The position numbers and the translations under genes are program-made. Below are positions 27,768 through 39,130 of a stretch of 64,000 nucleotides of DNA, one piece after another (position 1 is the first letter of the stretch; every line of letters starts with the position of its first letter). The stretch is from Pseudoxanthomonas beigongshangi (lineage in GTDB: Bacteria > Pseudomonadota > Gammaproteobacteria > Xanthomonadales > Xanthomonadaceae), in contig NZ_JADHDV010000005.1 in NCBI RefSeq assembly GCF_016820515.1, positions 1 through 64,000 on the forward strand. The letters run 5' to 3'. The notes beneath the pieces are model-generated. The model saw only the letters and a program-made list of their open reading frames with translations. It did not search any database and was not told the origin of the DNA.

Positions 27768-29123
27768 ATGATGATCAGAATCTGGGCGCAGATGATGGAG
27801 ATGGTGGGGTCACGGCCGAAGATTTGGCACTACCTCGCAATCGTGCAATTCCTATTGCTGGCAATGGCAGCGATCATTCTGGGGATATGGTGGCATCCAG
27901 AGCCTCATAGTGACTGGCTCTATTACTGGAATGCGGCGGGTGTTCCAAGCGCTTACGAGCGGGGAGGAATTGGTATTTGGCTGCTGGCAATTCCAAAGGC
28001 AATGGGGGCTTCACCACTGGCAGCCGCATTGCTTCTCAATGTATCCGCTTTGGGATGGTTGTCCTGGTTGGCCTATAGGTTGGACGGTTCTCGATGGCGC
28101 TGGCTCGCCCAGATCGTCGTCGCAGCACTTTTTCTGATCGTACCTTTCATGTCGCTTGTGCAATTGGACCTCATAGCGGCAACAGGATTGGCGACGGCAT
28201 TCTGGCTGCTTGCCGATGAGCGGCTCGTCCTTGCGGCGCGATGGCGGTCGCTGCTTGTACTGCTGACGGTTGCCATGGGTGTATCGACAAAGCCGCAATT
28301 CGCACTGATTCTTTGGACGCTTGTAGGCCTTGGGGCAATGTTCGGCTTGTTGCCGTTTTTCCGGAAGGAGAAAAGTCGTGGCAGGCGGGTTCTGCTGATT
28401 CTGCTGGTTGGCTCGATTCTGGGATTCCTGATGGATATGGGCTTCCGACAACTGAGCGGAAGGACAGAACAGATCAGGACCAGTTCTGCCGTGACCCTAT
28501 ATGGTGGTTTACTTGTGTCCAGCAACGAGCCCGACCAGGGATGCGGATATTGGTCAACCCGTGCGGCCGAGGCTGCCAAGGAAGATCTGTCGCGCACGTT
28601 GCCCGTAGCGGTCATTCAGCGGCTGCAGGCCCGACCCTTTCAGCACTGGCTGTCTGTCATGCGCTGCAAGGCACCCGAAATTCTGAATCCCCCGCCTTTC
28701 GCGCTCTATTGGCTGATTGAATCGCCCAATGTCCGGGCCGATATCAATGCGGCACCGAATGCGGCCGAATTCCAGAAACGCTATTACCAGGCGCTTGCCC
28801 TGGAAAGGTTCGCCTACGGTTGGCTGAAAATTGCTGTCTTCTTTGCCTGTTTTTTGACGACCCTCTGGCTATGGAGAAGAGACCGGCTCCTGTCATTGCT
28901 GCCCATGCTCTGGCCGATTTCTTTCTGGTGCGTTCACCTGGTCTTCGAGATCCAAGGCAGGTATTTCCTGGGTCTCTTCCTGCTTGCGCCGCTGCTTTGC
29001 ATGATGGTCCTACGCATGACTGTGCAGCCGGATCGCGAGATGGCAGGGATATTGAATCCTGAACGTTCCGGGCGGCTCGTCGAAGGAACCAGCAACGACC
29101 TGCTGGAGACACCTGCCAGATAG
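27768..29123 (+). CDS. Polytopic membrane protein, GT-C glycosyltransferase-like
   Basis: 451 residues with about ten hydrophobic helices. A first periplasmic loop holds SDWLYYWNAA (near residue 49), which resembles the Asp-containing loop of GT-C lipid-linked glycosyltransferases. Late in the protein FEIQGRYFLGLFLLAP resembles the E-x-x-RY segment of that class. No family was recognised firmly. The gene is visibly less GC-rich than its neighbours and stands alone between the mdh terminator and prpE, which suggests horizontal acquisition. The start may also be ATG 27771 or an ATG slightly further in. Confidence 0.6.
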   Translation: MMIRIWAQMMEMVGSRPKIWHYLAIVQFLLLAMAAIILGIWWHPEPHSDWLYYWNAAGVPSAYERGGIGIWLLAIPKAMGASPLAAALLLNVSALGWLSWLAYRLDGSRWRWLAQIVVAALFLIVPFMSLVQLDLIAATGLATAFWLLADERLVLAARWRSLLVLLTVAMGVSTKPQFALILWTLVGLGAMFGLLPFFRKEKSRGRRVLLILLVGSILGFLMDMGFRQLSGRTEQIRTSSAVTLYGGLLVSSNEPDQGCGYWSTRAAEAAKEDLSRTLPVAVIQRLQARPFQHWLSVMRCKAPEILNPPPFALYWLIESPNVRADINAAPNAAEFQKRYYQALALERFAYGWLKIAVFFACFLTTLWLWRRDRLLSLLPMLWPISFWCVHLVFEIQGRYFLGLFLLAPLLCMMVLRMTVQPDREMAGILNPERSGRLVEGTSNDLLETPAR

Positions 29124-29288
29124 GGATGCTCCAGGGCGAACCTGACGACGGAAAGGCGAGAACGATGCCGCGACACCTGGTATGCGCCGGCACGTCGCGG
29201 GTGGCACCGCTCATGCGACCAAGGTCGCAGGGCATGGACTGCGGTGCAGCTCTATGCTCTAGGGCGTCTCGGCGGCCCGGGAGAGGCC

Positions 29289-31190
29289 ATGCGGTACGAA
29301 GACGTTTATGGCAGATCCATCGAGCAACCGGAAGCCTTCTGGGGCGAAGAGGCACGCGCCATCCACTGGCATGTGCCGCCGCGGCAGGTGCTGGACTATT
29401 CGAAGCCGCCGTTCCGGCGCTGGTTCGTGGGTGGCCAGACCAATCTCTGCTACAACGCGGTGGACCGGCATCTGGCGGAACGCGCCGATCAGCTGGCGCT
29501 GGTGGCGGTATCCACCGAAACCGGCACCACGCGCGAGATCAGCTACCGCGAACTGCATCGCGAGGTGAACGCATTCGCCGCGATTCTCCAGCGCCTGGAC
29601 GTGGGGCGTGGCGATCGGGTGGTCATCTACATGCCGAACATGGCCGAGGCGGTGTTCGCGATGCTCGCCTGCGCGCGCATCGGAGCCATCCATTCGGTGG
29701 TCTTCGGCGGTTTCGCCGCGCACAACCTCGCGCTGCGCATCGACGATGCCCAACCCAGGCTGTTGATCGCCGCCGATGCCGGCATGCGAGGCGGCAAGGT
29801 CATCCCCTACAAGCCGCTGGTCGACGAAGCCTGCGCGAAGGCGGCCACGCCGCCGCCCAAGGTGCTGATTGTCTCGCGCGGACTGGATCCGGCCGAACCG
29901 AGGATGGCGGGGCGCGACGAGGACTACGCCACGCTGCGCCAGGCGGTCGGCGACGAGCAGGTGGACGTGGCATGGCTGGAATCCAACGAGCCCAGCTACC
30001 TGCTGTACACCTCCGGCACCACCGGCAAGCCCAAGGGCGTGCAGCGCGATGTCGGCGGCTACGCGGTCGCGCTGGCGCTGTCGATGCGCACGGTATTCGA
30101 CGTCGCGCCGGGGCAGGTGATGTTCTCCACCTCCGACGTCGGCTGGGCGGTCGGACACTCGTACAACGTCTATGGGCCGCTGATCGTCGGCGCCACTTCG
30201 GTGTTGTACGAAGGCCTGCCATTCCACCCGGATGCCGGCATCTGGTGGTCGCTGTGCGAGAAGTACGGCGTGCGCACCATGTTCTCTTCGCCGACCGCGA
30301 TCCGGGTACTGAAGAAGCACGATGTCGATTTCATCCGCCGGCATGATCTGTCGAAGCTGCAATACCTGTTCCTGGCCGGCGAGCCGCTGGACGAACCGAC
30401 CGCGCACTGGATCAACGACGTGCTGGGCAAGCCGGTCATCGACAACTACTGGCAGACCGAGACCGGCTGGCCGGCGCTGACGCTGCTGCCGGGCCTGGAC
30501 ATGAAGCCGGTGAAGTTCGGCTCGCCCGGTTTTCCCAATCTAGGGTACCGGATGAAGGTCATCGACGAAGGCACCGGCGCGGAAGTCGGGCCGGGCGAGA
30601 AGGGCGTGCTGGTCATCCAGCCGCCGCTGCCGCCGGGTTGCATGACCACCATCTGGAATGACGACGCCCGCTTCCTGTCCAGCTATTTCAGCCACTTCAA
30701 GGAACTGCTGTACAGCTCGCTGGACTGGGCCATCCGCGACGAGCAGGGCTACACCTTCATCCTCGGACGCACCGACGACGTAATCAATGTCGCCGGCCAT
30801 CGTCTGGGCACGCGCGAGATCGAGGAATCGGTGTCCGGCTTTCCCGCCGTGGCCGAGGCCGCGGTGATTGGTGTCAACGACGAACTGAAAGGGCAGGTAC
30901 CGGTGGTATTCGCGACGCTGCGGCAGGCGACCGAGGAACCGCACGAACGCGTGCGTGCGGCCGAAGGCATGCGCCGTACCGTGGAACAGAGCCTGGGCGC
31001 GGTGGCGCGGCCGGCGCGCGTGTACATCGTCAATGCGTTGCCCAAGACCCGTTCCGGCAAGCTGCTGCGGCGTTCGTTGCAGGCGCTGGCGCAGGGCGCG
31101 GATCCCGGCGACCTTTCCACCCTGGATGATCCGAACGCGCTGGAGGAAGTGAGGAAGGCGCTGCAACGCGGGCCGGAGGCCGGCAACTGA
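29289..31190 (+). CDS. prpE: Propionate--CoA ligase
   Basis: 633 residues from ATG 29289, behind GGGAGAGG. It activates propionate to propionyl-CoA with ATP, feeding the methylcitrate cycle. The acyl-adenylate motif YTSGTTGKPKG, NYWQTETGWP, the hinge-region GRTDDVINVAGHRLGT and the C-terminal catalytic lysine in PKTRSGKLLRR are intact. The N-terminal ACAS region (VHWHVPP-like IHWHVPPRQVLDY) matches PrpE and acetyl-CoA synthetases; context with prpBC-acnD-prpF decides for PrpE. It ends 7 bp from the convergent HTH-citrate synthase gene. Confidence 0.93.
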   Translation: MRYEDVYGRSIEQPEAFWGEEARAIHWHVPPRQVLDYSKPPFRRWFVGGQTNLCYNAVDRHLAERADQLALVAVSTETGTTREISYRELHREVNAFAAILQRLDVGRGDRVVIYMPNMAEAVFAMLACARIGAIHSVVFGGFAAHNLALRIDDAQPRLLIAADAGMRGGKVIPYKPLVDEACAKAATPPPKVLIVSRGLDPAEPRMAGRDEDYATLRQAVGDEQVDVAWLESNEPSYLLYTSGTTGKPKGVQRDVGGYAVALALSMRTVFDVAPGQVMFSTSDVGWAVGHSYNVYGPLIVGATSVLYEGLPFHPDAGIWWSLCEKYGVRTMFSSPTAIRVLKKHDVDFIRRHDLSKLQYLFLAGEPLDEPTAHWINDVLGKPVIDNYWQTETGWPALTLLPGLDMKPVKFGSPGFPNLGYRMKVIDEGTGAEVGPGEKGVLVIQPPLPPGCMTTIWNDDARFLSSYFSHFKELLYSSLDWAIRDEQGYTFILGRTDDVINVAGHRLGTREIEESVSGFPAVAEAAVIGVNDELKGQVPVVFATLRQATEEPHERVRAAEGMRRTVEQSLGAVARPARVYIVNALPKTRSGKLLRRSLQALAQGADPGDLSTLDDPNALEEVRKALQRGPEAGN

Positions 31191-31197
31191 TGCCGAG

Positions 31198-32415
31198 TCA
31201 TTCCGCCGTGGCGGGCGGCACGCCGGCGTAGCTGGCGCGGGGGCGGATCAGCCGGCCCTGGGCCTGCTGTTCCAACGCATGCGCGAGCCAGCCTGCCAGC
31301 CGCGCCGCCGCGAACATCACCAATGCCGGCGCGGCGGGCAGGGCGTTGGCGTGGCAGATCGCCGCCAGGGTGAAATCGACGTTGGGGCGCAGTCCGTTGA
31401 TGTCCTCGGTGGCGCTGATCACCGCCTCCATCCGCTGCATCACCGGCGTATCCGCGTGTAGCCGGCGCAGCCGCGCCAGCAATTCCGTCGCGCGGGGATC
31501 GCCATGCGGATAGAGCGCATGACCAAAGCCGGGCAGATCCTCGCCTTGCTGCCAGCGTGCGGCGATGAAATCACGGGGCGAGTCGGCCGCGCAGGCGGCT
31601 TCTATCAGCGAATAGGCGCGTGCGGTGGCGCCGCCGTGGCGCGGGCCGGACAACGCCGCCAGGCCGCTGCATACGGTCGCGTGCAGGTGCGCGCCGGTCG
31701 AGGCGACCACGCGCGCGGCGAACGCGGAGACGTTGAGTTCGTGCTCGGCGCACAGCACCAGCGCCGCGCGCACCGTATCTGCGAAACCTTCGTCGCCCGG
31801 TTTCCACGCATCCGCCAGCAGCCGATGGACCGGCCCCGCGGAAGGTGGGCGCGCCACCAGCAACGCGGCATTGTGGCGCAGCAGGGTGGCCGCGATTTCG
31901 TGGCGGACCAGGGCGGAGGCGCCCACGGATTGGCGCACGTCCAGCGCCAGCAGCGGAATCGCCGACATCGCGCGCGCCAGCGGCGGCAGGTCCGCGTCGC
32001 CGGCAATGGGGGCGACGTGCGCCGGCCATTGCGTCTCCAGCGTCGCCGTGAAGGGATCCTGGTCGCCGCAGTCCCACAGCAGCCGGGCGGCGTCTTCCAG
32101 GGTGGCGCCTTCGCGCACCGCGGCGACCGCCGAACGCCCGCGGTAGTAGGGGCCCTCCGGGCGGATCAGCGAAATCCGCGTCTCCAGCACCGGCAGGCCG
32201 CGATCCAGGCTCTGCGCGGCCCCGCGGGCGGCGCCGCGCCCGGCGCGCTTGCGCTGGGCCAGCCGGTCGACGTCGCGACGCAGGTACAGCCGGCTGCGGT
32301 GGTCCGGGCCGGGGCGCGACTCGATCAGGCCACGGCTGACATACGCATACAGGGTGGCCTGGCTGATGCCGAGCAGTCGGCAGGTGTCCTGGGCGGAGAG
32401 CAGGTCGGTGTCCAT
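31198..32415 (-). CDS. HTH domain fused to citrate synthase; candidate prp regulator
   Basis: 405 residues from ATG 32415 (a TTG at 32442 could extend it by 9). Residues about 7-52 form a MerR/excisionase-type winged HTH ([22 protein letters not shown]), followed by an RxGxR basic linker. Residues about 75-400 are a citrate synthase fold. Its catalytic residues are all present: His225 (AEHELN), His260 (GPRHGG), His299 (GFGH), Arg308 (DPRA) and Asp347 (NVDF). It is divergent from prpB with tandem TTGATCAA sites between them. The fusion plus this position suggests a regulator sensing a methylcitrate-cycle compound, possibly still enzymatic; this is inferred. It could instead be a plain citrate synthase. 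Confidence 0.82.
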
Positions 32416-32434
32416 GGCCGATAGATTGATTGAT

Positions 32435-32452
32435 TTGATCAAGATTGATCAA
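32435..32452. promoter_or_regulatory. Tandem TTGATCAA operator in the prpB divergent region
   Basis: Two perfect 8-bp palindromes TTGATCAA occur at 32435-32442 and 32445-32452, exactly 10 bp (one helical turn) apart. A degenerate TTGATTGA lies at 32426-32433. The second copy overlaps a possible prpB -35 (TTGATC at 32445) with a weak -10 CAGATT at 32468. The site starts 20 bp from the regulator's ATG. It is the natural candidate binding site of the HTH-citrate synthase protein. Confidence 0.6.
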
Positions 32453-32483
32453 CCCGAGCGATGGTGCCAGATTGTGCGCCGCC

Positions 32484-32560: not shown

Positions 32561-33448
32561 ATGAGCAACGCATCCGCCGGCGCGCGCTTCCGCGCCGCGA
32601 TCGCCGAGGAATCCCCGCTGCAGGTGATGGGCGCCATCACCGCCTATGCCGGCCTGATGGCCCGCCGCGTCGGCTACAAGGCGCTGTACCTGTCCGGCGG
32701 CGGCGTCGCCGCCAACTCGCTGGGCATGCCCGATCTGGGCATCAGCACAATGGAAGACGTGTTGACCGACGCGCGCCGCATCGTCGACGCCACCGGTTTG
32801 CCGCTGCTGGTCGACATCGACACCGGCTGGGGCGGCGCGTTCAACATCGCGCGCACCATCCGTTCGTTCGAGCGCGTCGGCGTTGCCGCCGTGCACATGG
32901 AGGACCAGGTCGGCCAGAAACGCTGCGGCCATCGGCCCGGCAAGGAAGTGGTGTCGAAGGACGAGATGGTCGATCGGGTCAAGGCCGCGGTGGACGCGCG
33001 TGGCGATGAAGGCTTCGTGATCATGGCGCGCACCGACGCCGCCGCCGTCGAGGGCATCGACTCGGCGATCGAACGCGCGGTGGCCTATGTCGAGGCGGGC
33101 GCGGACATGATCTTCCCCGAGGCGATGAAGACGCTGGAGGACTACCGCCGTTTCAAGGACGCGGTGAAGGTGCCGATCCTGGCCAACCTGACCGAGTTCG
33201 GCTCCACCCCGTTCTTCACCGTCGACGAACTGCGCACGGCCGGCGTGGACATCGCGCTGTACTGCTGCGGCGCCTATCGCGCCATGAACAAGGCGGCGTT
33301 GAACTTCTACGAGACCGTGCGCCGCGAAGGCACCCAGAAGAACATCATCGATACCCTGCAGTCGCGCGCGGACCTGTACGACTACCTGGGCTACCACGCC
33401 TACGAAGACAAGCTCGACGCCCTGTTCGCGAAGAAGGGCGACGCCTGA
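32561..33448 (+). CDS. prpB: 2-methylisocitrate lyase
   Basis: 295 residues from ATG 32561 with a CAGGAG ribosome-binding site (32549-32554). It cleaves 2-methylisocitrate into pyruvate and succinate, the last step of the methylcitrate cycle. The family's catalytic KRCGH loop appears as [13 protein letters not shown], and DIDTGWGG holds the metal-binding aspartates. The length matches PrpB. It is the first gene of prpB-prpC-acnD-SRPBCC-prpF, transcribed away from the HTH-citrate synthase gene. Confidence 0.96.
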
Positions 33449-33539: not shown

Positions 33540-34694
33540 ATGAGTGAACCCACCCCAGCCACCGGCTTCAAGCCGAAGAAGTCCGTCGCCCTGAGCGGCA
33601 CCGCCGCCGGCAACACCGCGCTGTGCACGGTCGGCCGCAGCGGCAACGATCTGCACTACCGCGGCTATGACATCCTCGACATCGCCACTACCAGCGAGTT
33701 CGAGGAAGTCGCCTACCTGCTGGTCCACGGCAAGCTGCCCAACTGCGCCGAACTGGCCGGCTACAAGGCCAAGCTGAAGTCGCTGCGCGGCATCCCGGCC
33801 TCGGTCAAGACCGCGCTGGAACAGCTGCCGCCGTCGGCGCACCCGATGGACGTGATGCGCACCGGCGTGTCGGTGCTGGGCTGCGTGTCGCCGGAGAAGG
33901 ACGACCACAACCACCCGGGCGCGCGCGACATCGCCGACAAGCTGATGGCCTCGCTGGGTTCGATGCTGCTGTATTGGTACCACTACAGCCACAACGGAAA
34001 GCGCATCGACGTGGAGACCGACGACGACTCGATCGGCGGCCACTTCCTGCACCTGCTGCATGGCGAGAAGCCGCGCGACTCGTGGGTGCGCGCGATGCAC
34101 ACCTCGCTGATCCTGTACGCCGAGCATGAGTTCAACGCCTCGACCTTCACCGCGCGCGTGATCGCCGGCACCGGCAGCGACATGCACTCATGCATCACTG
34201 GCGCCATCGGCGCGCTGCGCGGACCCAAGCACGGCGGCGCCAACGAAGTGGCGTTCGAGGTGCAGAAGCGTTACGAGACGCCGGACGAGGCCGAGGCCGA
34301 CATCAAGGCGCGGGTCGAACGCAAGGAAGTGGTCATCGGTTTCGGCCATCCGGTCTACACCGTCGGCGATCCGCGCAACGACGTGATCAAGCAGGTGGCG
34401 AAGGATCTGTCCGAGGAACAGCAGAGCACCAAGATGTACGCCATCGCCGAGCGCCTGGAAGCGGTGATGTGGGACATCAAGAAGATGTTCCCCAACCTGG
34501 ACTGGTTCAGCGCGGTGAGCTACCACATGATGGGCGTGCCGACCGCGATGTTCACCCCGCTGTTCGTCATCGCCCGCACCAGCGGCTGGAGCGCGCACGT
34601 CATCGAGCAGCGCATCGACGGCAAGATCATCCGCCCCAGCGCCAACTACACCGGCCCCGAAAACCTGAAGTTCGTCCCGATCGACCAGCGTTGA
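33540..34694 (+). CDS. prpC: 2-methylcitrate synthase
   Basis: 384 residues. It condenses propionyl-CoA with oxaloacetate to 2-methylcitrate. Citrate synthase residues are intact: [16 protein letters not shown] (catalytic His), GFGHPVY (second His), DPRN and NLDWFSA (catalytic Asp). Length and context between prpB and acnD favour PrpC over a TCA citrate synthase. A GGGAGG ribosome-binding site precedes ATG 33540. The protein is a distant relative of the HTH-citrate synthase encoded 1 kb upstream. Confidence 0.96.
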
Positions 34695-34791: not shown

Positions 34792-37401
34792 ATGAACACC
34801 GAATACCGCAAGGCCCTGCCGGGCACCTCACTGGACTACTTCGACGCGCGCGCCGCGGTCGACGCGATCGCGCCCGGCGCCTACGACCGGCTGCCGTACA
34901 CCTCGCGTGTGCTGGCGGAAAACCTGGTACGCCGCTGCGAACCGGCAGCGCTGACCGATTCGCTGAAGCAGCTGATCGAACGTCGCCGCGATCTCGACTT
35001 TCCGTGGTTCCCGGCGCGCGTGGTCTGCCACGACATCCTCGGCCAGACCGCGCTGGTCGACCTGGCCGGCCTGCGCGACGCCATCGCCGACAAGGGCGGG
35101 GATCCGGCCAAGGTCAATCCGGTGGTGCCGGTACAGCTGATCGTGGATCACTCGCTGGCGGTGGAATGCGGCGGCTACGATCCGGACGCGTTTTCCAAGA
35201 ACCGCGCCATCGAGGATCGCCGCAACGAGGATCGCTTCCACTTCATCGAATGGACGCGGCATGCGTTCGAGAACGTCGACGTCATCCCGCCGGGGAACGG
35301 CATCATGCACCAGATCAACCTGGAGAAGATGTCGCCGGTGATCCAGGTGCGTGGCGGCGTGGCCTTCCCGGATACCTGCGTGGGCACCGACAGCCACACC
35401 CCGCATGTCGATGCGCTGGGCGTGATCGCGATCGGTGTCGGCGGCCTGGAAGCGGAGAACGTGATGCTGGGGCGCGCCTCCTGGATGCGCCTGCCCGACA
35501 TCGTCGGCGTCGAGCTGACCGGCCGCCCGCAGCCCGGCATCACCGCCACCGACATCGTGCTGGCGCTGACCGAGTTCCTGCGCAAGCAGAAGGTGGTCGG
35601 CGCCTATCTGGAGTTCCGCGGTGAAGGCGCCGCCGCGCTCACCCTGGGCGACCGCGCGACCATCTCCAACATGGCGCCGGAGTACGGCGCCACCGCGGCG
35701 ATGTTCTTCATCGACGGCCAGACCCTGGACTACCTGCGCCTGACCGGTCGCGAGGAAGAGCAGGTCCGCCTGGTCGAAACCTACGCGAAGACCGCCGGCC
35801 TGTGGGCCGACAGCCTGGGCAACGCCGAATACGAACGGACGCTGGCGTTCGATCTTTCCAGTGTCGTCCGCAACATGGCCGGTCCGTCCAATCCGCATGC
35901 CCGAGTCGCCACCGCCGATCTGGCGGAGAAGGGCATCGCCGGCGATCTGGCGCAGGCACGCGCGCAGGAGGCCGAGGGCCTGATGCCGGATGGCGCGGTC
36001 ATTATCGCCGCCATCACCAGCTGCACCAACACCAGCAATCCGCGCAACGTGATCGCCGCCGCGCTGCTGGCACGCAACGCCAACCGGGTCGGCCTGACCC
36101 GCAAGCCATGGGTGAAGTCGTCGCTGGCACCCGGTTCCAAGGCGGTCGCGCTGTACCTGGACGAGGCCGGACTGACCCCGGAACTGGAAAAGCTCGGCTT
36201 CGGCGTGGTCGCCTTCGCCTGCACCACCTGCAACGGCATGTCCGGCGCGCTGGATCCGAAGATCCAGCAGGAAATCGTCGATCGCGACCTGTATGCGACC
36301 GCCGTGCTGTCCGGCAACCGCAACTTCGACGGCCGCATCCATCCCTACGCCAAGCAGGCCTTCCTGGCCTCGCCGCCGCTGGTGGTGGCCTACGCGATCG
36401 CCGGCACCGTGCGTTTCGATATCGAGAAGGACGTGCTGGGCACGTTCGAGGGGCGCGAGATCCGGCTGAAGGACCTGTGGCCGAGCGACGAGGAAATCGA
36501 CGCGGTGGTGCGCGCCTCGGTGAAGCCGGAACAGTTCCGCCGCGTGTACGGTCCGATGTTCAACGTGCGGGTCGAACACGGCGAACGCGCCAGCCCGCTG
36601 TACGACTGGCGCCCGATGAGCACTTACATCCGCCGCCCACCGTACTGGGAGGGCGCGCTGGCCGGCGAACGCTCGCTGCGCGGCATGCGCCCGCTGGCGG
36701 TGCTGCCGGACAACATCACCACCGATCACCTGTCACCGTCCAACGCGATCCTGCTGGACAGCGCGGCCGGCGAGTATCTGGCGAAGATGGGCCTGCCGGA
36801 AGAGGACTTCAATTCCTATGCCACCCACCGCGGTGACCACCTGACCGCGCAGCGCGCGACCTTCGCCAATCCGAAGCTGTTCAACGAGATGGTGCGCAAC
36901 CCCGACGGCGGCGTGAAGCAGGGCTCGCTGGCGCGGGTCGAGCCGGAAGGCCGGGTGATGCGCATGTGGGAAGCGATCGAGATCTACATGGAGCGCAAGC
37001 AGCCGCTGATCATCATCGCCGGTGCCGACTACGGACAGGGTTCGTCGCGCGATTGGGCGGCCAAGGGCGTGCGCCTGGCGGGCGTCGAGGCGATCGTCGC
37101 CGAGGGCTTCGAACGCATCCACCGCACCAACCTGATCGGCATGGGCGTGCTGCCGCTGGAGTTCCAGCCCGGCACCACCCGCCTGACCCTGGGCATCGAC
37201 GGCACCGAGACCTTCGACGTCGTCGGTGAACGCAGGCCACGCGCGACGCTGACCCTGGTGATCCATCGCCGCGACGGCGAGCGCATCGAGGTACCGGTGA
37301 CGTGCCGCCTGGACAGCGACGAGGAAGTCTCGATCTACGAAGCCGGCGGCGTGCTCCAGCGCTTCGCCCAGGACTTCCTGGAGTCGGCGCAGGCGGCGTG
37401 A
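34792..37401 (+). CDS. acnD: Fe/S-dependent 2-methylcitrate dehydratase AcnD
   Basis: 869 residues, an aconitase-family protein. The iron-sulfur ligands are in ITSCTNTSN and CTTCNGMSG. GTDSHTPHVDALG and the C-terminal GADYGQGSSRDWAAKG are aconitase signatures. AcnD dehydrates 2-methylcitrate to the trans isomer of 2-methylaconitate and needs PrpF, encoded two genes downstream; that pairing separates it from AcnA/AcnB. ATG 34792 (MNTEYRKALPGTSL) gives the normal length. Confidence 0.95.
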   Translation: MNTEYRKALPGTSLDYFDARAAVDAIAPGAYDRLPYTSRVLAENLVRRCEPAALTDSLKQLIERRRDLDFPWFPARVVCHDILGQTALVDLAGLRDAIADKGGDPAKVNPVVPVQLIVDHSLAVECGGYDPDAFSKNRAIEDRRNEDRFHFIEWTRHAFENVDVIPPGNGIMHQINLEKMSPVIQVRGGVAFPDTCVGTDSHTPHVDALGVIAIGVGGLEAENVMLGRASWMRLPDIVGVELTGRPQPGITATDIVLALTEFLRKQKVVGAYLEFRGEGAAALTLGDRATISNMAPEYGATAAMFFIDGQTLDYLRLTGREEEQVRLVETYAKTAGLWADSLGNAEYERTLAFDLSSVVRNMAGPSNPHARVATADLAEKGIAGDLAQARAQEAEGLMPDGAVIIAAITSCTNTSNPRNVIAAALLARNANRVGLTRKPWVKSSLAPGSKAVALYLDEAGLTPELEKLGFGVVAFACTTCNGMSGALDPKIQQEIVDRDLYATAVLSGNRNFDGRIHPYAKQAFLASPPLVVAYAIAGTVRFDIEKDVLGTFEGREIRLKDLWPSDEEIDAVVRASVKPEQFRRVYGPMFNVRVEHGERASPLYDWRPMSTYIRRPPYWEGALAGERSLRGMRPLAVLPDNITTDHLSPSNAILLDSAAGEYLAKMGLPEEDFNSYATHRGDHLTAQRATFANPKLFNEMVRNPDGGVKQGSLARVEPEGRVMRMWEAIEIYMERKQPLIIIAGADYGQGSSRDWAAKGVRLAGVEAIVAEGFERIHRTNLIGMGVLPLEFQPGTTRLTLGIDGTETFDVVGERRPRATLTLVIHRRDGERIEVPVTCRLDSDEEVSIYEAGGVLQRFAQDFLESAQAA

Positions 37402-37453: not shown

Positions 37454-37918
37454 ATGACCATGTCGAACGAGACCGGAACCGTCCGCCTGCACCGCGTCCT
37501 GCGCGCGCCGCCCGAGCGCGTCTACCGCGCCTTCCTGGATCCGGAGGCCATGGTGAAGTGGCTGCCGCCACACGGCTTCACCGGCAAGGTCCACCACATC
37601 GATCCGGTGGTCGGCGGGACCTACCGGATGTCGTTCACCAATTTCGGCACCGGCTCCAGCCATGCCTTCGGCGGCACCTATCGCGAACTGGTGCCGGGTG
37701 AGCGCATCCGCTACGACGATCAGTTCGAGAACCCGGCGTTGCCGGGCACCATGCAGGTCAGCGTCTCGCTCAAGGCGGTGGCCTGCGGCACCGAGATCAG
37801 CATCGTGCAGGAAGGCATTCCGGCGATGATTCCGGTGGAGTTCTGTTACCTCGGCTGGCAGGAGTCGTTGACCCTGCTGGCCAACGTGGTCGAACCCCAG
37901 ATTCCCGACAACCCCTGA
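37454..37918 (+). CDS. SRPBCC (AHSA1-type) domain protein
   Basis: 154 residues (148 if translation starts at ATG 37460). A single START-like SRPBCC fold with the AHSA1 pattern: VYRAFLDPEAMVKWLPP, GGTYRMSF, ELVPGERIRYDD and the C-terminal GWQESLTLLANVVE. Such proteins bind hydrophobic ligands in a central cavity, and many have no known partner. It sits between acnD and prpF, 18 nt before prpF on the same strand, so it is presumably co-transcribed. A role in methylcitrate metabolism is not established. Confidence 0.85.
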   Translation: MTMSNETGTVRLHRVLRAPPERVYRAFLDPEAMVKWLPPHGFTGKVHHIDPVVGGTYRMSFTNFGTGSSHAFGGTYRELVPGERIRYDDQFENPALPGTMQVSVSLKAVACGTEISIVQEGIPAMIPVEFCYLGWQESLTLLANVVEPQIPDNP

Positions 37919-37936: not shown

Positions 37937-39130
37937 ATGCCGCACGTGCCCCAGATCCGAATCCCCGCCACCTACATGCGCGGAGGCACCAGCAAGGGCG
38001 TGTTCTTCCGGCTGCAGGATCTACCCGAACCCGCGCGCGCGCCGGGCGCGGCGCGCGATGCGCTGATGCTGCGGGTAATCGGCAGCCCCGATCCCTACGG
38101 CAAGCAGATCGACGGCATGGGCGGCGCGACTTCCAGCACCAGCAAGACGGTGATCCTGGCGAAGAGCGAGCGGCCGGACCACGATGTCGATTACCTGTTC
38201 GGCCAAGTGTCCATCGACAGCGCCTTCGTCGACTGGAGCGGCAACTGCGGCAACCTGTCGGCGGCGGTGGGATCGTTCGCCATCGCGGGTGGACTGGTCG
38301 ATGCCGCGCGCATCCCTCAGGACGGTGTCTGCACGGTGCGTATCTGGCAGTCGAACATCGGCAAGACCATCGTCGCACACATGCCGATCACCGGCGGGCA
38401 GGTGCAGGAAACCGGGGACTTCGAACTGGACGGCGTGACATTCCCGGCAGCCGAGGTGCAGCTGGAGTTCCTGGATCCGGCCGACGAGGGCGAAGGCGAG
38501 GGCGGCGGCGCGATGTTTCCGACCGGCAACCTGGTCGATGAGCTGGACGTGCCAGGCGTCGGCAAGTTTCCGGCGACGCTGATCAATGCCGGCATCCCGA
38601 CCATCTTCGTCAACGCCACCGACATCGGCTACACCGGCGCGGAATTGCAGGACGCCATCAACGGTGACCCGAAGGCGCTGGCGATGTTCGAGGCGATCCG
38701 TGCGCACGGCGCGGTAAGGATGGGATTGATCGCCGATGTGTCGGAGGCCGCGCGCCGCCAGCACACGCCGAAGGTGGCGTTCGTGGCGCCGGCGAAGGAC
38801 TACGTCACTTCCAGCGGCAAGCAGGTGGGCGCGGATGATATCGACCTGCTGGTGCGCGCGATGTCGATGGGCAAGCTGCATCACGCGATGATGGGCACCG
38901 CCGCCGTCGCCATCGGCACCGCCGCGGCGGTGCCGGGCACGCTGGTCAATCTGGCCGCGGGCGGTGGTGAACGCAGCGCGGTGCGCTTCGGTCATCCGTC
39001 CGGCACGTTGCGGGTGGGCGCGGAAGCCACGCAGGAAAATGGCGAATGGAAAGTCGCCAAGGCCATCATGAGCCGCAGCGCCCGCATCCTGATGGAAGGC
39101 TGGGTGCGCGTTCCCGGCGATGCGTTCTGA
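37937..39130 (+). CDS. prpF: 2-methylaconitate isomerase PrpF
   Basis: 397 residues. IRIPATYMRGGTSKGVFF at the N-terminus, MGGATSSTSKT and WSGNCGNLSAAVG are hallmarks of PrpF. The protein isomerises the trans-2-methylaconitate made by AcnD to the cis form, allowing hydration to methylisocitrate. It is the last gene of the prp operon, and a bidirectional terminator follows. Confidence 0.95.
   Translation: MPHVPQIRIPATYMRGGTSKGVFFRLQDLPEPARAPGAARDALMLRVIGSPDPYGKQIDGMGGATSSTSKTVILAKSERPDHDVDYLFGQVSIDSAFVDWSGNCGNLSAAVGSFAIAGGLVDAARIPQDGVCTVRIWQSNIGKTIVAHMPITGGQVQETGDFELDGVTFPAAEVQLEFLDPADEGEGEGGGAMFPTGNLVDELDVPGVGKFPATLINAGIPTIFVNATDIGYTGAELQDAINGDPKALAMFEAIRAHGAVRMGLIADVSEAARRQHTPKVAFVAPAKDYVTSSGKQVGADDIDLLVRAMSMGKLHHAMMGTAAVAIGTAAAVPGTLVNLAAGGGERSAVRFGHPSGTLRVGAEATQENGEWKVAKAIMSRSARILMEGWVRVPGDAF

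Follow-up and report, generated by a model that had tools for sequence, protein, structure and literature searches.

The prp genes of the methylcitrate cycle in Pseudoxanthomonas beigongshangi are very likely regulated by the product of a divergent gene, in which an HTH domain is joined to a citrate synthase (CS) domain, and for which we predict an operator between this gene and prpB. We consider it probable that the protein is a one-component transcription factor that uses its CS domain as sensor and controls prpB-prpC-acnD-prpF as well as its own gene. The comparison with related genomes supports this by the architecture of the protein, its linkage to the prp genes, an operator that co-occurs with the protein, and the recurrence of this operator before some relocated acnD genes. 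The initial annotation had already read the protein as a regulator, and both the prp linkage and the operator co-occurrence speak for that reading.

The fusion protein and its locus

Within the window, i.e. the whole stretch of 64,000 nucleotides that was analysed, the fusion gene extends over positions 31198-32415 of the minus strand (ATG at 32415, stop at 31198) and encodes 405 amino acids with an HTH and a whole CS domain, just as the initial annotation had claimed. The DNA-binding domain comprises residues 5-56 (32248-32403, minus strand), contains the segment TLYAYVSRG and matches Pfam HTH_17 over the cut-off (E 1.5e-8). It had been called MerR-like; the HTH as such stands, but the MerR label is loose, since both MerR models of Pfam stay below their cut-offs (PF00376: 19.9 of 28.2 bits, PF13411: 19.8 of 21.6 bits). 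The PrpR_N, GntR HTH and FCD domains gave no Pfam match in the fusion protein. The CS domain comprises residues 72-393 (31237-32202, minus strand; Pfam Citrate_synt, E 1.3e-65), its fold matches, and a score of 222.2 bits with PF00285 (Citrate_synt) against a cut-off of 27 places the protein in the citrate synthase superfamily. None of the models in the NCBIfam scan of the protein exceeded its cut-off, the top one being the 'citrate synthase' subfamily PRK12350 with 163.5 of 332 bits.

The residues His225, His260, His299, Arg308 and Asp347, which had been listed as catalytic positions, are each found where the initial annotation put them, and Arg372 and Arg393 are present as well. Judging by citrate synthase biochemistry, we take H260, H299 and D347 to be catalytic and R308, R372 and R393 to be citrate-binding. 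The AlphaFold model, built with 42 aligned sequences (mean pLDDT 87.1, pTM 0.78), consists of the HTH, a long helix (residues 46-71) and the CS fold, with residues 61-75 at low confidence. Its best matches in the PDB are citrate and 2-methylcitrate synthases (1a59, 6s87, 3o8j), with a Foldseek E-value of 8.2e-15 for 1a59, while 6s87 is PrpC with oxaloacetate. In the HTH, residues 21-28 (TLYAYVSR) are invariant in the 42 aligned members. The protein thus has the build of an enzyme-fold one-component regulator, i.e. an HTH joined to an enzyme-like domain. Among the matches listed, 19 of 20 plasmid records name the homologue 'citrate synthase family protein', and the remaining one has 'citrate/2-methylcitrate synthase'.

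The fusion gene is divergent from prpB-prpC-acnD-prpF, as had been stated before, and all four of these genes exceed NCBIfam cut-offs. On the plus strand follow prpB for methylisocitrate lyase (32561-33448; PRK11320, TIGR02317; ATG at 32561, searches started from 32552), prpC for 2-methylcitrate synthase (33540-34694; PRK12351), acnD for the Fe/S-dependent 2-methylisocitrate dehydratase (34792-37401; TIGR02333; ATG at 34792, searches started from 34786), a gene for an AHSA1-domain protein (37454-37918; Pfam PF08327) and prpF for 2-methylaconitate isomerase (37937-39130; TIGR02334). On the other side, prpE for propionate-CoA ligase (29244-31190, plus strand; NCBIfam TIGR02316 over cut-off), which does not appear in the initial annotation, converges on the fusion gene. 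A relative of the AHSA1 gene is located at most 1.5 kb from acnD in 15 of the 17 genomes in which acnD has moved away from prpC. The PrpB protein of the window shares 63-67% identity with most genus-mates as against 88-91% with several records of Dyella, Rhodanobacter and Fulvimonas, and PrpC shares mostly about 85-95% with genus-mates (partial matches); judged by these identities, it seems that within the operon only prpB was exchanged.

A scan of eight flanking ORFs at 20.5-43 kb gave no regulator gene (the ORF at 27768-29123 has no family match), on which ground a second regulator adjoining the locus was rejected. The earlier statement that no PrpR is present in the window was borne out and holds for the whole 4.23 Mb genome, where PrpR_N (PF06506) had no match and the E. 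coli control was positive. A sigma-54 PrpR hidden elsewhere in the genome is thereby ruled out.

Linkage to the prp genes in related genomes

Full-length orthologues (E <= 1e-120) are present in 41 of 100 relatives, including the genome under study, and 41 of 41 loci have a prp gene as divergent neighbour, namely prpB in 40 cases and acnD in one (L039). In addition, the HTH-CS homologue of one genome (G076; L050:5044-6278) is divided between two reading frames; its operator is intact, and the gene opposite is another citrate synthase. A scan of named genomes (relatives at least 583, 80 loci kept), in which the divergent neighbour within 450 bp was scored, gave prpB at 55 loci, acnD at one, another citrate synthase at 17, a CoA-transferase at four and none at three; the latter are L174 and L179 (prpB about 1.2 kb off in both) and L170 (no flank). 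The linkage to prp genes elsewhere, which the initial annotation had proposed as a test, is thus found in 41/41 and in 56/80 loci, counts that are to be read with the fact that the two sets share genomes and that related genomes are non-independent observations. The closest named relative among the matches listed is a Pseudoxanthomonas metagenome assembly (94%).

The predicted operator and the proposed prpB promoter

The intergenic site at 32426-32452, which had been suspected as a binding region, turned out to be a conserved predicted operator of 27 bp, TTGAT-N7-ATCAA-GA-TTGATCAA (no strand assigned). It consists of a dyad of two half-sites, TTGAT-N7-ATCAA at 32426-32442, and of TTGATCAA as third half-site. 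The 25-mer at 32426-32450 is unique in the window even if three mismatches are allowed, where 0.02 matches would be expected. There is one operator in the 4.23 Mb genome, and the only other match at this threshold carries three mismatches, for which reason a second functional operator in this genome was rejected.

The search pattern TTGATN7ATCAAGATTGATC (at most one mismatch) was found in 43 of the 100 relatives, i.e. in 42/42 with the fusion gene vs 1/58 without it (G063, where the match is intragenic). The reversed pattern, used as control, had no match in the 100 genomes; together with the expectation of 0.02 in the window this excludes a chance motif. Of the 79 named loci that have a flank, 74 carry the strict core of the operator upstream of the fusion gene; four others are one base off (L146, L171, L177, L179), and the fifth is L200. 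All 74 matches are upstream, and the strict core occurs nowhere else in the named loci.

From conserved sequence and spacing we propose a prpB promoter at 32445-32473 (plus strand), which would consist of a -35 element TTGATC (32445-32450, within the operator), a 17-bp spacer and a TG-extended -10 element CAGATT (32468-32473). In the 59 prp-type loci, an element (G/C)TGN(C/A)A is at a fixed distance at 48 of 58 operator sites, at other distances at three and absent at seven. A consensus promoter scan called no promoter at prpB. Operators of the MerR family are located inside a long promoter spacer of 19-20 bp; here, the proposed operator would be situated upstream of and over the -35 element of a promoter with a 17-bp spacer. 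With its centre near -41, it would be placed like the site of a class II activator, but repression is sterically possible, too. As to the sign of regulation, we lean slightly towards activation, given this position of the operator at what would be a weak promoter. With 10 bp between its start codon and the operator, the fusion gene is likely to be autoregulated.

Second sites before relocated acnD genes

Nine members of the genus (G002, G004, G007, G009, G010, G011, G015, G017, G031) possess a second operator, which in 9/9 is located about 83-126 bp upstream of a relocated acnD gene, in the same orientation as at prpB and with GTGCCA(G/C/A)ATT downstream, spaced as it is there. Apart from G070, where acnD faces the fusion gene, we examined the other fusion-bearing relatives for acnD (30 of 31) and recovered it in 28, adjoining prpC in 11 and elsewhere without a full operator in 17. 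Fifteen of these 17 (L218, L219, L221-L233) have, 134-168 bp upstream of acnD, a dyad TTGAY-N7-RTCAA that lacks the third half-site; the other two have nothing. Elsewhere the dyad pattern is rare, with 96 occurrences in 807 kb of 97 loci, mostly the operators themselves. The lone dyad may be a reduced operator of the fusion regulator, or a different protein may bind there. A separate acnD would then be under full control in some lineages, perhaps under reduced control in many, and under none in a few.

Distribution of PrpR and of the fusion

PF06506 is present in four of the 100 relatives. In three of them (G038, G053, G058) PrpR is encoded at the prp locus and the fusion is absent; the PrpR gene is divergent and about 0.3 kb from prpB in G038 and G053, and about 3.6 kb from prpB in G058. 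These three cases fit a replacement of one regulator by the other at the prp locus. The fourth genome, G087, possesses both regulators, with PrpR about 1.7 Mb away from the fusion. Four genomes of the same genus (G006, G024, G032, G034) have kept the prp genes and lack both fusion and operator, so the regulator is dispensable.

The wider HTH-CS family

Because a class search with the full-length alignment (E 1e-45) gave only close relatives, we used an alignment of the N-terminal part, which at E <= 1e-6 matched 52 of 398 genomes at the level of the phylum and five of 369 at that of the class. From the 53 matches listed, 28 distant loci (L085-L112) were picked for diversity. The gene opposite the fusion is another citrate synthase in 14 of these, a CoA-transferase III in four (L087, L090, L091, L097), a 2-hydroxyacid dehydrogenase in two (L088, L093), MipA with a citrate:proton symporter behind it in two (L104, L109) and a methyltransferase in one (L095). 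In L086 (5933-6934) the fusion faces a TctC-type tricarboxylate receptor, with an operator spacer of six bases, not seven, and in L092 it is the end of a gene row that diverges from a 2-hydroxyacid dehydrogenase gene, with two operator sites between them. No target class was assigned to L100, L105 and L106.

A variant of the operator is located upstream in 22 of the 28 distant loci, some with one base or spacer position altered. L100, L104, L105, L106 and L109 have no operator upstream, nor genome-wide at up to one mismatch. In L104 and L109 the HTH segment reads TLYAYVGRK vs the usual TLYAYVSRG. L105 and L106, from genomes of the same phylum, have the usual segment despite the missing operator, and the proposed model gives no account of these two. 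The locus of L104 and L109, both gammaproteobacterial, comprises MipA, the citrate:proton symporter, a 2-hydroxyacid dehydrogenase and an aconitase-like gene beside a fusion devoid of H260 and D347; it is possible, that this is an uncharacterised locus for the use of tricarboxylates.

Sensor or enzyme

The residues H225, H260, H299, R308, D347, R372 and R393 are invariant in 42/42 prp-type members, and the same seven are invariant in a 42-row alignment covering three neighbour classes. Among the 28 distant members, H260 and D347 are both lost in five (L086, L104, L105, L106, L109) and H299 is changed in two further ones (L094, L100), with the alignment being unsure near H299 in L104 and L109. 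L105 and L106 have lost H225, H260, H299 and D347 altogether and kept the arginines. R308 and R393 are conserved in 28/28 and R372 in 27/28 (His in L111); all three are retained in the five members without H260 and D347, the alignment being unsure near R308 in L106. Arginines that are kept where catalytic residues are lost form the pattern that is expected of a tricarboxylate sensor, which indirectly supports sensing through the CS domain. Nevertheless, the prp member may also be an enzyme. The invariance of its catalytic residues goes beyond what a pure sensor would strictly require.

For the proposed regulator, one can imagine the following mechanism. The CS domains would hold a dimer together as in ordinary citrate synthases, and its two HTH domains would bind to the dyad at 32426-32442, while the third half-site would overlap the probable -35 element of prpB. 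The CS active site with its three citrate-binding arginines could serve as ligand pocket for a pathway metabolite, most likely 2-methylcitrate or a related tricarboxylate, with propionyl-CoA or oxaloacetate as further possibilities. The open-to-closed motion of the CS fold would then alter DNA binding, at the promoter of prpB and presumably also at that of the fusion gene itself.

A somewhat different explanation would be a trigger enzyme, i.e. an active citrate or methylcitrate synthase that additionally binds the operator, so that regulation reports catalytic turnover. The invariant catalytic and citrate-binding positions in the prp-type members and in the 42-row alignment are in line with it, as is a fold near that of PrpC with oxaloacetate. 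However, the operon already includes a true PrpC, all NCBIfam synthase models stay below their cut-offs with the fusion protein, and the architecture is kept in those five of 28 distant members that have lost catalytic residues, so we regard this explanation as rather unlikely. It is very improbable that the HTH is vestigial and the protein a plain enzyme, i.e. one more citrate synthase that is merely located at this locus. Such an enzyme would agree with the presence of the catalytic residues and, among the matches listed, with the annotation of 19 of 20 plasmid homologues, but neither with a TLYAYVSR segment that is invariant in 42 aligned members nor with an operator that accompanies the gene in 42/42 relatives and occurs again before acnD in nine.

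The conserved site might also belong to another regulator, with the fusion protein only regulating its own gene or being a bystander. A trans-acting regulator could be encoded elsewhere in the genome, and it could be a different protein that binds the lone dyad which 15 of 17 genomes have upstream of acnD. Against this, the operator tracks the fusion across Gamma- and Alphaproteobacteria, whatever gene is faced, and only one of 58 relatives without the fusion has it, which makes this possibility highly unlikely. The one-component regulator that acts at this operator remains our preferred explanation.

The initial annotation had proposed that the regulator borrows the cycle's own synthase fold. 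In the narrow sense this does not hold, since the CS domain and PrpC fall into different groups. In a tree of 55 proteins, for which the program warned of long branches, all 44 HTH-CS rows are on one side (100/99), apart from PrpC and from divergent citrate synthases, and the 13 that are linked to prp cluster together (98/97). Subject to the same warning, the 100/99 split rules out that the CS domain originated from a duplication of the neighbouring PrpC. By this tree, the fusion probably predates its role at the prp genes and was not derived from the local PrpC.

Relation to known regulators and significance

Like the fusion protein, the sigma-54-dependent PrpR of Salmonella and E. coli is a prp regulator at the same locus, but its PrpR_N sensor has an unrelated fold, and PF06506 is missing both in the fusion and in the genome. 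PrpR is a sigma-54/Fis-type activator with 2-methylcitrate as coactivator in Salmonella, as cited in PMC9765439. The same paper cites Suvorova 2012, according to which all Xanthomonadales analysed use a Fis-type PrpR and GntR types are typically found in Gammaproteobacteria. The GntR-family PrpR of Pseudomonas aeruginosa is an HTH regulator of the methylcitrate cycle, too, but according to PMC9765439 it has a GntR/FCD fold and the site ATTGTCGACAAT. For Xanthomonas citri, PMC12153269 describes a PrpR whose gene is upstream of prpB and which, as a repressor, binds the palindrome GTTGCAA-N2-TTGCAAC of the prpB promoter, in contrast to TTGAT-N7-ATCAA proposed here for the fusion. Because of the different site, and since this repressor is compared with Salmonella PrpR there, we infer that it is not an HTH-CS protein.

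The design itself has precedents in BzdR with an HTH and a shikimate kinase-like domain (PMC3602430) and in MocR/GabR with an HTH and an aminotransferase fold (PMC4944035, PMC5734734), though the enzyme folds are different ones. With citrate synthases and 2-methylcitrate synthases the fusion shares the complete fold and the active-site residues, but it differs by the N-terminal HTH, the operator and its position apart from PrpC in the tree. No regulator with a citrate synthase fold was among the matches listed in the open-licence literature, and PrpQ as a literature term gave only unrelated papers among the matches listed. Within this literature, transcription factors with a citrate synthase fold apparently are an undescribed family.

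As a wider and more tentative hypothesis, which we regard as possible but doubtful, there might exist a proteobacterial transcription factor family with an intact citrate synthase fold as sensor and a shared operator TTGAT-N7-ATCAA-GATTGA. Lysobacterales and their relatives would have taken it over for the methylcitrate cycle and Alphaproteobacteria for a citrate synthase gene, and elsewhere it would have been recruited to genes for CoA-transferase, 2-hydroxyacid dehydrogenase or tricarboxylate transport. The prp member would still be catalytically competent, and turnover of its own substrate, by the open/closed cycle, would be passed on to the promoter.

Metabolite sensors that originate from enzyme folds are known for a few folds only, and citrate synthase is among the best-studied enzymes. 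If the proposed function is correct, many entries named 'citrate synthase family protein' would in fact be regulators, and the open/closed motion of a classic enzyme would become directly testable as a genetic switch. For Pseudoxanthomonas and its relatives, the missing regulator of the prp genes would be identified together with its operator.
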